A stretch of DNA of 49,271 nt from Elusimicrobiota bacterium (GTDB lineage Bacteria; Elusimicrobiota; Elusimicrobia; UBA1565): contig NVTF01000007.1 of NCBI GenBank assembly GCA_002401485.1, forward strand, positions 1-49,271, written 5' to 3'. The first letter of the stretch is position 1, and each line of letters begins with the position of its first letter. Shown here piece by piece: positions 41,429 through 47,196 of this stretch. The position numbers and the translations under genes were made by a program. The notes beneath the pieces were generated by a model, which was not told the origin of the DNA, did no database searches, and saw only the letters and a program-made list of their open reading frames with translations.

Positions 41429-44326
41429 ATGTTTAAAAAGGGAATGGCAGGCGTTTTATCGGCCGTCCTGATCGGGCTTCCTCCTTATGAAGCCTGCGCC
41501 CGCAGCCTCACCGCCCCCGTACGTGTTGCCGGAGCAACCCTCACGGGCACCCTGCATCCTCTCGTCACACCCGGACTCACGTCCACACTCTCGACACTGG
41601 ACTCGACCCTGGCCCCAGGCTTAACCGGGACACTGCCGGTCCTCACTCCGATCACGCTTGTCCCATCCCAAAATTTAAAAATCGTTGCCCCTAGCGCCGT
41701 GAGGGCGGCGAACATCAACGTCTCCCCGGCAGTACGTTCCGTTAGAATTGCGGCAAAGGCCCAAACCCCAAAACCACTCGCGAAACTCCTTGCCCAACAA
41801 AACAGCATCGCCGAAACAGCCCAATCCCTGGCCGACATGCCCGCAGGCAATGCTTCCGCCGCGGGAATCGCGATCATGGACAAAATTCTTGGGGAGCAAT
41901 CCTTTAACAGCGCCGACTCTCCACGCAATGAGGGATACGGACTGCAGACCTTTGATTCCGAAGGCAATCTCAGCGATAAACATCCCAGCCAACTCGTGCC
42001 CGCGTCAGCCGACTCACCACGCAAAAAAGAACGCCGGCCGCCGACACCGCAGGGAATGGATGCAATCAGTAAGGTTCTCCCGACAACAGCCGCCGGACAA
42101 TGGGGCGCGGCATTGTTCACCGGAGGACTCGCCGCCGGAGCGTATTTCGGCTCGAGTCATTTGGCGACCATGGCTCTCACCGGAATATTGGCGCATGCAC
42201 CGGTGGCCGCGCTCGTGGCGGCAGGCATTTTCGCCGCCTCTGCAATTTCTTATCTCGGTCTCGGCGTACGCGTGATGCTGGCGCGCAGCGGCACTATCGA
42301 AGCCGGCGACCACAGCCCCATGAAGCGCCCCTACGCCTTCTTTCAAAAAGGCGGCTTTCGAAGTATTCTCTTTACGCCCGTCGATAGTGAAAATGCCCCG
42401 TACATGCCTTCCTACGCAAAATGGACGCTCACGCTGCACGCGCGAGTCCGCAAGAAGGCCGGGAAAATTCTTGGATATACAGTTCAGACCATCGTTAACG
42501 TTCGTTATTTAGTCGGCGAGTCCATCGCCTTCGGACGTTCGCTGCTGGGCCTCTTCCCCCTGATCAAGTCCATGTACCGAGGCGACAAAGAGGTAAAACC
42601 CTTCGTCAAACAATACCGCAAGTCCGTCTGGACCCTGCAGGGCATCAATGTTGTGCAGGCCGTCATGGGAGTCGCAACGAGCTACGTGGTCGGCGCGCTC
42701 ATCGACGCCGCAACCGAAAATACAATGGGTACCGCGGTCATGTTCGCAGGCGCCATGGTCGCGATGATGCTCGCCAACGCTGTTCTCAACACAACCTACG
42801 GCTGGATCAAGGGCCGCCTCACCAGCAACGTTCTTACAAGTTTCCGTGAAAATCTCTTCGGGCATTTGCTGCGCCTACCCTTTGGTTTTTTTGGAAAGGA
42901 AAAACCGTCCCAAGTCGCCGCACGCATGAGTGTTGATGTCGCCAACCTCGCTACCAAGAACATCGGCATCCCGGTGATTCTTCCCTATTACGGGGCGATG
43001 GCTCTGTTCGCCGGCATCATGATCACGCTCACCAGCTGGCAAACCACCTTGCTCGTCACCCTCGTCGGCATTCCCCTTTCCTTAGTGGCGCACATCTACG
43101 GCAATAAAGCGGAACGCCTCAATGAAGCCCAGGTGAATCGGCGCGCGGAAATGATCAGCGCGGGAGAAGAGACCCTCAGCCGGGCCCGCGACATTCGCGC
43201 CTTCGCCACCGAGGATCTCGAAACCAACCGCTACATCGGCAGCGTGGACGCCTTCATCGGCACACTCATGCGAAAAACACGCATCTCCTCAATTTATACC
43301 GGGGGCATGGACCAACTCTACCACGCGGCTTTCTACCTCTCGGTTCTCTTCATCGGTCTCTTCTCGTTTATCGCCACCGGCGAACCCACCATCGGTCAAA
43401 CCATGGCCATGGTCGGCTACGCGGGTTACATGCGCCAAGCCCTCGCCGGATCCTTAAGCCTCTACACCCAGTACCGGGAGACAACCGGCTCCTCACGCCG
43501 GGTCCTCGACTACCTAAAAGAAAAACCCGCCGTAAACGAAGCCCCCGACGCTGTGGATCCCGGCGTTCTGAAAGGAGGCGTCTCTTTCTCGGGCGTGGAC
43601 TTCAGCTACGACGGAAAATACAAGGTTCTCCAAGACATCAATTTTGACGTGGCTCCCGGCCAACACGTCGCACTGGTCGGCGGCGAAGGGTCAGGCAAAA
43701 GCGCCCTGCTGGACTTAATTGCTCGACTCGACGATCCGACCGTGGGCGGCGTCTCCTTCGACGGAAAGGCGGCGACGACTCTTAAATTAGCCGCTCTGCG
43801 CCGACAATTATCCCTGCTGCACGATAACGGCATCTGGCTCGATGACCAGACCGTGCGTGATAATTTGACCTACGGCCTAAAAGACGAAGTTTCGGACGAA
43901 GAGATTTTAGAGGCTGCCCGCAAAGGCGGTGCCGACTTCCTCGAAAATACTGGCACGTTCCCCGACGGCCTGGACACAATTTTGAATGAAGGCAATTGGC
44001 GATTCACCGCGTTTCGCAAAAAACAATTGGAAATTTCGCGGGCAATTCTCGCCGATCCCCGAATCGTTTTGCTCGACCGCCCGGTCTCAGGACTCAACGA
44101 TTTTGAAGCAGCCCGAATCGAAGCCCAACTCCGCAAGTTAACGGCAGGGCGCACCTCCTTCTCAATCGGACAACGCATCGAAGACGCCCGTTCTGCGGAT
44201 GTTATCTTCGTGATCAAAAAGGGGACCATCGTCGAACGCGGACGCCACGACGAACTAATGGCCGCAGAGGGTGTTTATTACAACCTCTGGATCTCTGAAA
44301 AAGCGAAAGAAGCCGCCGAAAAATAA
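41429..44326 (+). CDS. ABC-exporter-like protein with signal peptide, ~300-aa N-terminal extension and degenerate nucleotide-binding domain
   Basis: ABC TM core (NVVQAVMGVATSYVVGALIDAATENTMGTAV...) and NBD with Walker A GGEGSGKS, but LSGGQ, the Walker B Glu and the H-switch are not conserved (see findings). Confidence 0.88.
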   Translation: MFKKGMAGVLSAVLIGLPPYEACARSLTAPVRVAGATLTGTLHPLVTPGLTSTLSTLDSTLAPGLTGTLPVLTPITLVPSQNLKIVAPSAVRAANINVSPAVRSVRIAAKAQTPKPLAKLLAQQNSIAETAQSLADMPAGNASAAGIAIMDKILGEQSFNSADSPRNEGYGLQTFDSEGNLSDKHPSQLVPASADSPRKKERRPPTPQGMDAISKVLPTTAAGQWGAALFTGGLAAGAYFGSSHLATMALTGILAHAPVAALVAAGIFAASAISYLGLGVRVMLARSGTIEAGDHSPMKRPYAFFQKGGFRSILFTPVDSENAPYMPSYAKWTLTLHARVRKKAGKILGYTVQTIVNVRYLVGESIAFGRSLLGLFPLIKSMYRGDKEVKPFVKQYRKSVWTLQGINVVQAVMGVATSYVVGALIDAATENTMGTAVMFAGAMVAMMLANAVLNTTYGWIKGRLTSNVLTSFRENLFGHLLRLPFGFFGKEKPSQVAARMSVDVANLATKNIGIPVILPYYGAMALFAGIMITLTSWQTTLLVTLVGIPLSLVAHIYGNKAERLNEAQVNRRAEMISAGEETLSRARDIRAFATEDLETNRYIGSVDAFIGTLMRKTRISSIYTGGMDQLYHAAFYLSVLFIGLFSFIATGEPTIGQTMAMVGYAGYMRQALAGSLSLYTQYRETTGSSRRVLDYLKEKPAVNEAPDAVDPGVLKGGVSFSGVDFSYDGKYKVLQDINFDVAPGQHVALVGGEGSGKSALLDLIARLDDPTVGGVSFDGKAATTLKLAALRRQLSLLHDNGIWLDDQTVRDNLTYGLKDEVSDEEILEAARKGGADFLENTGTFPDGLDTILNEGNWRFTAFRKKQLEISRAILADPRIVLLDRPVSGLNDFEAARIEAQLRKLTAGRTSFSIGQRIEDARSADVIFVIKKGTIVERGRHDELMAAEGVYYNLWISEKAKEAAEK

Positions 44327-44367: not shown

Positions 44368-45681
44368 ATGCCTACCCTCGAAGGAATTTCTGTCGAACAA
44401 AAAGCGCTGGAGATGAATCTCGACAGCGGAAAATACGGCACGATTGCGGAAATCGGCGGCGGCCAGGAAACCGCGCGTTGGTTTTTCCGAGTTGGGGGCG
44501 CGTCCGGTTCAGTCGCGAAAACCGTGTCCGCCTACGACATGCAGGTCAGCGACGCCATTTACGGCTGCTCCCCTCGCTACGTTTCCGAACAACGCATCAG
44601 CACCATGCTGGATCATGAATACGACCTGCTGCTGAGCCGGCTCACCAAAAGTCGCGGAGCGAAGAGCACGTTTTTCGCGTTCGCCAATACCGCCGCCGTA
44701 CGCAGCTACCGCTGGCGCAAGGACGGCAACGGCTGGCTCGGCATTCAATTTCAAACAAAGGCGAACGGGCCAGCACACCGAATTATTCTGCATGCCGGTC
44801 TTCGCGGGTCTGAAACCGCCGACCAACAGGAAACCCTCGGCGTTCTCGGCGTGAACTTAATCTACGGCGCGATGTTCCTGCATGCGGAACCCGAAGCCCT
44901 TGTGGACTCACTCTTCGATCACCTCTCCCTGAGCCACGCGGAGATCGACTTCATCCGATTCGAAGGCCCGGCCTTCTCAAAAATAGGAAATCGGCGCATG
45001 AATCTTCGCCTTGTTCACAGCGGCCTCGCCGAAGCCGTCGCCTTCACCGCAAAAGGACGTCCGATCGAACCAAACAGCCTGTTGCGCAATCGAGCGCTCT
45101 TAACGCTGCGAGGAAGCTTCAACCCGGTTACCAATACCCACGTTCGCATTTTGGAAGCTTCGCTAAGCCGCTTTCGACAGGAGTTTTCCCTCAAAGAAGA
45201 AGAGGTCATCGCCGCTCCCGAGATTTCACTGCACAATCTAAAATCCTCCGATCGCTTCTCGTCGAAGGACTACCTGCATCGGCTGACAACCTTGGCCCGC
45301 CTCGGCTACCCCGTACTCGTCACGAACTTTCCGGAATTTTACCGCCTCGCCGATTATCTCTCGCGTCACACCGACCGCGAGATCGCCTTCGCCACCGGCA
45401 TCAAACTACTGCAAAATATTTTTGAGGAAAAATATTACGAAGGACTTAAAGGCGGAATCCTGGAAGCCTTCGGCCGCATGTTCACCAACCGGGTTAGGCT
45501 CTACGCGTATCTGGGGGAAGGACAACATGCGGGGGACCTGAGTACTGTTAATAAATTACCCGTGGCGCCGCATTTGCGTCACCTCTACCAGCATCTCATC
45601 CGCAACCATTTCATTCGAGCGGTTCGGCCGAAAAAGATCAGCGGGACGCAGAAGTTGTCGCTCCAGATACACCGGAATTAA
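44368..45681 (+). CDS. NadD-like nucleotidyltransferase-fold protein with conserved N-terminal domain
   Basis: LRGSFNPVTNTHVRILEASL aligns with GxFxPxHxGH but the first His is Thr; N-terminal GTIAEIGGGQETARWFF...SAYDMQVSDAIYG...YVSEQRISTMLDHEYDLL. Confidence 0.7.
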   Translation: MPTLEGISVEQKALEMNLDSGKYGTIAEIGGGQETARWFFRVGGASGSVAKTVSAYDMQVSDAIYGCSPRYVSEQRISTMLDHEYDLLLSRLTKSRGAKSTFFAFANTAAVRSYRWRKDGNGWLGIQFQTKANGPAHRIILHAGLRGSETADQQETLGVLGVNLIYGAMFLHAEPEALVDSLFDHLSLSHAEIDFIRFEGPAFSKIGNRRMNLRLVHSGLAEAVAFTAKGRPIEPNSLLRNRALLTLRGSFNPVTNTHVRILEASLSRFRQEFSLKEEEVIAAPEISLHNLKSSDRFSSKDYLHRLTTLARLGYPVLVTNFPEFYRLADYLSRHTDREIAFATGIKLLQNIFEEKYYEGLKGGILEAFGRMFTNRVRLYAYLGEGQHAGDLSTVNKLPVAPHLRHLYQHLIRNHFIRAVRPKKISGTQKLSLQIHRN

Positions 45682-45686
45682 GTTTA

Positions 45687-45905
45687 TTAGGATTTCTCAG
45701 AAGGGGTTTCGCTGAATTTAAGCAAACCTTCGGCTTCCTCAATATGTTCTTTGCCAACGCAAACTTCAACGCCTCCAAGCGCAAGAACCTTAAAAGGATC
45801 CAGTCGGCAAATATCCGAGTTCAAAAGGAAAGCGGGAATTTTCCGCGCCATCAGCATTTCGCATACAAACCCGGCTTCAATCGCATCATAACTGAAAAAA
45901 AACAA
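45687..45905 (-). CDS. DUF2007-like putative signal-transducing protein
   Basis: YDAIEAGFVCEMLMARKIPAFLLNSDI...LALGGVEVCVGKEHIEEAEGLL. Confidence 0.75.
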   Translation of the reverse strand: MFFFSYDAIEAGFVCEMLMARKIPAFLLNSDICRLDPFKVLALGGVEVCVGKEHIEEAEGLLKFSETPSEKS

Positions 45906-47196
45906 TCTTGCCCTCTCCGGAGTTGTTGCTATTGTAGAAACGCAGACCGGAAAAGATGTCCCGGGCCAATGCGATCATGAGAAGAATCTCTACCCCGGCA
46001 AACGCGTGCGAAAGTTTGGGAATTAGATCGAGGGACCAAGACAGAGACGCTATCGTTGCAGCATAAATCCCGCCAACAAGAAGCACCTTCTCAAGCCTTC
46101 CCTCTATGAATTCACTGATGGGTGAAGCGTCCTTTCGGCCTTCCATTTCCCCGCCGGATTTCTCGATTATCTGTCCCAGCGATTTTATATCGAAACAGAT
46201 CGCCGCGATCACGTAGCAAGCGGCCACAATGAGACACAGCAAGAAGATTCGTCCCCCCATGTGCCCGAATCTGAAGAAGTCCGCCATTGCGCCTGCCACG
46301 GCCAGGCTGGGGAAAAAACCAAAAACAGTGAGAGGGATGGCCGTTATTCCAGACGAGATTGCGATCGCAGCAACGCCAACCTGGCTCATATGAATCGGGA
46401 GGAACGTGCGTGTCTCTGGGTACACTTTATTCCCCACCTTTTTACGCTCAAGCTGCACGGGGATCTTCAACTGCAGAGATTCCATAAACACAACAGCACC
46501 AACAATCAATCCCAACAAGATAACGATTAGTTCGGGGCGTTCGAGCAGGGGTTGATAGAAAAGATTCCTCACCTTAGAACCAAAGAGAGAAGATAAATCT
46601 AGAAAGATCAGAACAAGCACTCCATTGGCCACTCCTCTCTTTGTGATTTGCTGAGCCAACCACGGGGCAAAGAGGGCGCCTGCGGTCAAAGAAATTACCG
46701 CGACTGGAAAAAAAGGAACGCTCGACGCATTTACAATGGACAACCCCGATGGGGTCGGCATGGAATTAAATGTTGCTGCGATCAAACAAGCATGCACGGC
46801 TGCAAATAGGATGGTTAGCCGCAACACCCTTCGACGCCAAATATCCCCGCCATCAGCAGAAAAAAATCCTGCAATCTTGACCAAATACAGAAACCCGGCT
46901 GCGGCCAGGAAAGGGCGTATTCCCAATGAGAGAATCGAAAATTGGCCCATCGCTCCGGCGACGAATTTGTTAGAACTGGCGAGATTCGTGGGATCAGACG
47001 AAGTGAGGGCGCGGATAACATCGAGGTTTAATCCTGGGATAGGAATGATGGACCCGATTTTATAGGCGATAAGCGCGCCAATCGTAAATAAAATCCGGTT
47101 TCTTGTCTCAGGCTTTATCTCTGGTATGAAATCTCCGTAGCGAACCCGGAATGTTCCCTCTTGCTCCTGCGAGCGATAGCATAACGCCATTGTCAA
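45886..47196 (-). CDS. SecY-family protein translocase channel paralogue
   Basis: NRILFTIGALIAYKIGSIIPIPGLNLDVI, MGQFSILSLGIRPFLAAAGFLYLV, QQITKRGVANGVLVLIFLDL, ETRTFLPIHMSQVGVAAIAISSGI; 10-TM SecY pattern. Confidence 0.88.
   Translation of the reverse strand: MTMALCYRSQEQEGTFRVRYGDFIPEIKPETRNRILFTIGALIAYKIGSIIPIPGLNLDVIRALTSSDPTNLASSNKFVAGAMGQFSILSLGIRPFLAAAGFLYLVKIAGFFSADGGDIWRRRVLRLTILFAAVHACLIAATFNSMPTPSGLSIVNASSVPFFPVAVISLTAGALFAPWLAQQITKRGVANGVLVLIFLDLSSLFGSKVRNLFYQPLLERPELIVILLGLIVGAVVFMESLQLKIPVQLERKKVGNKVYPETRTFLPIHMSQVGVAAIAISSGITAIPLTVFGFFPSLAVAGAMADFFRFGHMGGRIFLLCLIVAACYVIAAICFDIKSLGQIIEKSGGEMEGRKDASPISEFIEGRLEKVLLVGGIYAATIASLSWSLDLIPKLSHAFAGVEILLMIALARDIFSGLRFYNSNNSGEGKIVFFQL

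Follow-up and report, generated by a model that had tools for sequence, protein, structure and literature searches.

An Elusimicrobiota ABC exporter-like protein with lost hydrolysis motifs and a conserved membrane domain

The window, the whole 49,271-nucleotide stretch analyzed, encodes a 965-aa protein (P0001) in which an ABC_membrane domain is fused to ABC_tran in an exporter fold, as seen by Pfam, AlphaFold and Foldseek. The LSGGQ signature, the catalytic Glu, the Q-loop Gln and the switch His of functional exporters are all missing from P0001. We give roughly even odds (about 0.5) to the reading that it is a membrane protein of type IV exporter descent that no longer hydrolyzes ATP and acts as an ATP-independent transporter or gated facilitator, like SbmA/BacA. 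Somewhat short of an even chance, we propose that ABC exporters in this Elusimicrobiota order were converted stepwise, at least two times, to ATP-independent transporters outside SbmA/BacA, and that P0001 is an intermediate stage, its ATPase dead yet still present, in a natural series from primary to secondary transport. P0001 looks like one of a family of pumps in the course of abandoning ATP.

Domain layout and catalytic motifs

Pfam matches to P0001 are ABC_membrane at residues 407-672 (6.7e-31) and ABC_tran at 734-886 (3.7e-18). In the single-chain AlphaFold model, pLDDT is mostly over 90 in the transmembrane domain (TMD) and the nucleotide-binding domain (NBD), and the N-terminal extension is disordered. 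A Foldseek search with this model returned type IV exporters among the best matches (TM-score to target about 0.84-0.87), and the best NCBIfam scores were to MsbA and TAP-like families, far below the equivalog cut-offs. A sequence-only reading of the gene had claimed an open frame of this length with a preserved exporter fold, and ORF, Pfam and the AlphaFold core agree on it (Table 1).

The same reading had called Walker A intact and the signature, Walker B Glu, switch His and Q-loop altered. Each call was confirmed by reading the sequence and by alignment to intact relatives, relative to which P0001 has LHD for VPQ, FTAFR for LSGGQ, LLDR for LLDE and GQ for AH, with Walker A and the Walker B Asp still canonical. 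P0001 is also the lowest-scoring full-length ABC_tran match (profile positions about 1-136) in its own genome (71.4 bits vs 85.8-128). From these motifs we infer that hydrolysis has been lost and that the ATPase of P0001 is disabled; having kept a canonical Walker A, the protein may still bind ATP.

Table 1. Features of the P0001 gene in the window, and NBD-less exporter genes adjoining relA in other genomes
Feature	Coordinates	Strand	Basis
Whole gene, ABC-exporter-like protein P0001	41429..44326	+	ORF, 965 aa plus stop
Hydrophobic, signal-peptide-like N-terminus with A-x-A site (..LPPYEACA)	41429..41500	+	sequence
Low-complexity Ala/Thr/Pro/Leu extension	41501..42091	+	disordered in AlphaFold model
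Thr/Pro stretch inside extension	41537-41650	+	sequence
Two SADSPR motifs	41909-41929 and 42005-42025 (aa 161-167, 193-199)	+	
Putative extra TM pair upstream of exporter core	42092..42286	+	model helices 222-251 and 257-286
Exporter TMD, TM1-6	42587..43519	+	Pfam; model pLDDT mostly over 90
Coupling helix 2 (ARDIRA), with clade-specific Asp588	43184..43201	+	predicted helix 586-591
Asp628, start of TM5, clade-specific acidic position	43310..43312	+	
NBD, predicted fold intact, dead by sequence	43571..44293	+	model, alignment
Walker A GGEGSGKS, canonical	43679..43702 (aa 751-758)	+	
Q-loop position, Gln to Asp	43814..43831	+	
Signature, LSGGQ to FTAFR	44003..44017 (aa 859-863)	+	
Walker B IVLLDR, catalytic Glu to Arg	44063..44080	+	
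Switch SIGQR, His to Gln	44162..44176	+	
NBD-less MsbA-type genes directly before relA	L104:4907-5866; L136:919-1971; L137:2979-4049; L138:3174-4181		
NBD-less MsbA-type gene directly before relA	L139:4378-5610	-	

Constraint in the congeneric orthologue

Searching genome contigs with P0001 alone returned a congener and distant ABC proteins only; the best outside match was in Elusimicrobia bacterium CG_4_9_14_3_um_filter_62_55. The orthologue in the congener (genome G001, same genus) is 71% identical overall and aligns with GGEEGAKG at Walker A, where Gly and Ser are gone, LTPLR at the signature, LLDR at Walker B and IGER at the switch. Close homologues with canonical LSGGQ, Glu and His had been named as the sign of merely local degeneration, and this closest one is dead too. 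The substitutions to Arg and Gln had been put forward as possibly fixed: the change from Glu to Arg is common to both species, but the switch His is Gln in P0001 and Glu in the congener.

P0001 and its orthologue are 87% identical (0.870) in the TMD, with dN/dS 0.075 over aa 386-700, and 71% (0.710) in the NBD, with dN/dS 0.15. In the intact tandem exporter of the genus the order is reversed for the same two species (TMDs, 0.759/0.765; NBDs, 0.826/0.796). By this comparison, constraint in the P0001 pair has moved from the ATPase engine to the membrane domain. The NBD, judged by its dN/dS, is still under moderate constraint and so does something. We rejected local decay because the orthologue is also dead and the TMD is strongly constrained. 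The original proposal of a neofunctionalized pseudo-transporter rather than a decaying gene holds up on these grounds, the loss being fixed in the congener and the TMD under strong purifying selection, and on the existence of clade members without an ATPase.

A clade with dead or missing ATPases

We sought relatives in 341 Elusimicrobiota genomes and across the order, the relatives being from draft genomes, and built a maximum-likelihood tree of 57 units from the TMD only. P0001 and its congener orthologue (clade A) fall together with clades B, C and D, apart from the remaining units (support 100/97). This clade has nine members and none is catalytically intact: five have a dead ATPase, three have none, and the ninth is truncated where its contig stops. 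The columns of ICL2 and the TM5 start might have converged once the NBD was dead; in a tree without them and without the longest branches, the clade is kept at 95/79 and found in 97% of bootstrap trees. Bootstrap values for the clade in the TMD tree range over 95-100%.

The NBD of clade B (G004, G009, G010) is dead, with Walker A reading ..ARRSL (ARR for GKS), LDxEQ, and neither the Walker B Asp nor the His. Clades C (G004:C2, G040:C180, and the truncated G049 member) and D (G004:C76) are without an NBD. Their complete frames end at the TMD/NBD linker, Pfam finds ABC_membrane only in the two NBD-less G004 proteins, and a tblastn search of the flanking sequence fetched around the clade C loci turned up no NBD. 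We also considered, and rejected, an independent NBD protein working with clade C, the closest match in G040 and G049 being only 38% identical.

Clades B and C are sisters (100/100), and the position of D in the clade is uncertain. The simplest reading of the tree would have the ATPase inactivated once in an ancestor and the NBD deleted once or twice afterwards. Independent ATPase deaths in A and B are possible, since the two have no obvious catalytic substitutions in common. Clade B has dN/dS of 0.36-0.53 (TMD, NBD), which we did not take as relaxed selection because intact exporters from these high-GC genomes have similar values.

Two clade B genes from different families (L046:821-3370 and L036:7765-10167) are 87% identical in the TMD with dS 0.14; exporter genes matched in the same two genomes, which are possibly not orthologous, are 61% identical with dS 0.63. 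The likeness of the clade B genes across two families hints at horizontal transfer.

A second exporter locus beside relA

Following up a TMD-only row of 320 aa in the tree brought us to an exporter of the MsbA type that adjoins relA in most checked genomes of the order. This exporter is unrelated to the P0001 lineage, and its different states occupy one syntenic position across genera. Its NBD is intact in six genomes (G001, G002, G003, G004, G006, G013), and has an eroded Q-loop and signature (LSAGQ, LSSGQ, LSFGQ) in many others. In G009 (LDA, LSVGQ) and G015 (LDG, LTRGQ) it is dead, the switch His of both having become Asp. In a single genus, five genomes (G010, G019, G022, G040, G051) have no NBD at this locus, the TMD being followed directly by relA. 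Among the four of these five compared by codons, the TMD-only copies share 80-86% identity, and a dN/dS of 0.20-0.34 points to purifying selection on the membrane domain; both of their intracellular loops show visible erosion of the coupling stretches. As the second locus shows an equal series of intact, eroded, dead and deleted forms, ATPase loss is, on the sequences, recurrent in these exporters.

Changes in the membrane domain and coupling helices

Several columns of the TMD alignment distinguish the clade from intact exporters. Position 588 is acidic in 8 of 9 clade rows vs 1 of 46 intact units, and position 628, where TM5 begins, is D/E in 8 of 9 vs 3 of 46. Position 590 is Lys/Arg in 45/46 intact units, and position 592 is Phe/Tyr in 40/46 of them vs 2/9 clade rows (A only). 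The gained acids are few (positions 588 and 628, and in B and C also 636, a Glu where intact units mostly have Lys/Arg) and lie in or near cytoplasmic loops; no clear glutamate ladder was found in the clade alignment. The motif of coupling helix 2 is eroded in clades B-D; in P0001 the helix is kept, but with Asp588. The P0001 model has both short coupling helices (485-490, 586-591), whereas the model of an NBD-less G004 protein has neither. The outer-side loops of that NBD-less model carry no Lys/Arg, so its core appears to retain the normal orientation.

N-terminal extension

The extension is the fastest-evolving part of the protein (aa 26-225; 47% identity to the congener, dN/dS 0.25), and the signal-like N-terminus is 84% identical (dN/dS 0.14). 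The sequence-only reading had described an exported extension with two SADSPR motifs and an extra TM pair. Its hydrophobic start with an ACA site and its Thr/Pro stretch are present, but the extension is a family trait, carried also by catalytically intact exporters such as the 1748-aa tandem G000:C180. We therefore rejected it as a special mark of the dead protein. The SADSPR motifs occur at both sites in P0001, but the 71% orthologue has NGADGPF at one and nothing comparable at the other; for want of conservation they were rejected as functional elements. The extra TM pair does appear as two helices in the AlphaFold model, but at low confidence (pLDDT about 31-48), and the intact tandem exporter of the genus has a counterpart of this stretch.

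A YEA.A box occurs in other clade members and in some intact relatives; the signal-like N-termini that share it lie at window 41429-41500 and in L036, L089, L046 and L038. We rejected this box as a genome-wide sorting signal, as its single match in the own genome is the P0001 gene; it recurs in relatives. The signal-like N-terminus would export the extension, yet TM1 of an exporter starts in the cytoplasm, and the two do not fit simply. Intact relatives show the same arrangement of signal-like N-terminus and exporter.

The main rival to the transporter reading is a scaffold or receptor, in which the exporter fold would not transport and would instead anchor the exported extension or sense a ligand, as SUR does for Kir6. 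Such a role would suit a long, exported-looking extension behind a signal-like N-terminus under constraint, an NBD kept without catalysis, and a neighborhood with no common genes that point to a cargo. It fits less well with an extension that evolves fastest where the TMD core evolves slowest and that intact exporters carry as well, or with the NBD-less proteins linked to relA, which have no N-terminal extension. We regard a scaffold or receptor as unlikely, if still worth keeping in view.

Neighborhood and partner

The upstream neighbors, an M13 peptidase and a molybdate-transporter-like gene, are common to the P0001 locus and the congener; the downstream genes differ between the two, and a conserved downstream gene or partner was rejected on that account. 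A conserved partner with canonical sites had been suggested as a check, and no canonical ABC gene adjoins the P0001 gene in either species. Nor was a canonical extended paralogue found among the matches in the clade B, C and D genomes, several of which are incomplete.

Downstream in the window lie a 437-aa protein (44368-45678, +) with no Pfam or NCBIfam match, none such being called downstream in the congener, and a divergent SecY-like protein (45886-47196, -; Pfam SecY 1.2e-35) that falls short of the NCBIfam cut-off for SecY and may be a second SecY. Elsewhere, two frames of about 3,400 codons (L040:3-10256 and L041:1254-11495, the latter on the minus strand) hold exporter domains amid long regions that match no Pfam family.

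P0001 could be the dead half of a heterodimer whose working site comes from an intact ABC exporter partner. Many exporters are heterodimers in which one site is degenerate (TM287/288, TAP), and the genus has intact exporters (C180, C74). We consider this improbable because motif loss is near total, extending to the signature needed to complete a partner's site and sparing Walker A alone, because three clade members have no NBD at all, and because no conserved partner was found beside the gene in the two species or among the matches in the clade B, C and D genomes.

Less probable again is an NBD that binds ATP, or hydrolyzes it unconventionally, and so drives a slow cycle or gates the protein as in CFTR: the canonical Walker A and Walker B Asp of P0001 would allow it, but the congener has lost the Walker A Gly and Ser, and clade B has ARR for GKS and no Walker B Asp. 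A functionless pseudogene in early decay, to which the lost catalytic motifs alone might point, is barely credible with 965 codons open in two species, the low TMD dN/dS, and dead or NBD-less forms whose frames are intact in further genera and at the relA locus.

Proposed function and comparison with known systems

In the preferred reading, that of an ATP-independent transporter or facilitator, P0001 would function without ATP through its six-helix TMD, presumably as a homodimer. The most likely role of the TMD would be secondary-active transport or gated facilitation, much as in SbmA/BacA, and by analogy the same most likely applies to the other Elusimicrobiota proteins. The dead NBD is probably a structural or dimerization element, a remnant retained in P0001 and dispensed with by its relatives. 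Inactivity as an ATPase, homodimerization, transport, energy source and substrate are all points on which we infer rather than observe.

Ideas on how SbmA/BacA arose from ABC exporters have so far relied mainly on the two ends of the path, full-length YddA-like pumps and SLiPTs without an NBD. In the present set intermediates coexist: exporters with an eroded Q-loop and signature, dead ones with coupling kept, dead ones with coupling lost, and ones with the ATPase deleted. Because these states are found in living lineages, at relA in one syntenic position, the order of events and the nature of the driving force that takes over from ATP are directly testable by comparing neighboring states. A literature search for catalytically dead ABC exporters as pseudoenzymes found nothing.

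Among ATP-driven exporters, P0001 shares the TMD and NBD fold of MsbA, TM287/288 and Sav1866 and differs in having lost all hydrolysis motifs but Walker A. Substituted catalytic residues are likewise found in the NBDs of TM287/288, TAP and BmrCD, where each subunit holds part of one working site; P0001 has only Walker A and no conserved partner. The tandem G000:C180 resembles P0001 in its N-terminal extension, in the segment G-D-x-E-x-x-P-F before TM1 and in its TMD, but its catalytic motifs are canonical.

SbmA and BacA are homodimers with an exporter-like TMD, without an NBD or coupling helices, that are driven by protons, and an origin in full-length ABC transporters has been proposed for them (PMC13316013). 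Once its NBD is removed, MsbA still moves ethidium under a pH gradient (PMC4979069). The NBD-less relatives of P0001 resemble these SLiPTs in having an exporter-like TMD without an NBD and in their proposed derivation from full-length ABC transporters; P0001 itself differs in keeping a dead NBD, which its clade C and D relatives lack. No match to the SbmA/BacA Pfam family was found in P0001 (E up to 0.01) or in the G004 clade C and D proteins (E up to 0.001), an elbow helix is still predicted, and the exporter lineages of origin are others. Lacking both a profile match and an obvious glutamate ladder, the Elusimicrobiota proteins are, by sequence, outside the SbmA/BacA family and probably a case of parallel evolution.
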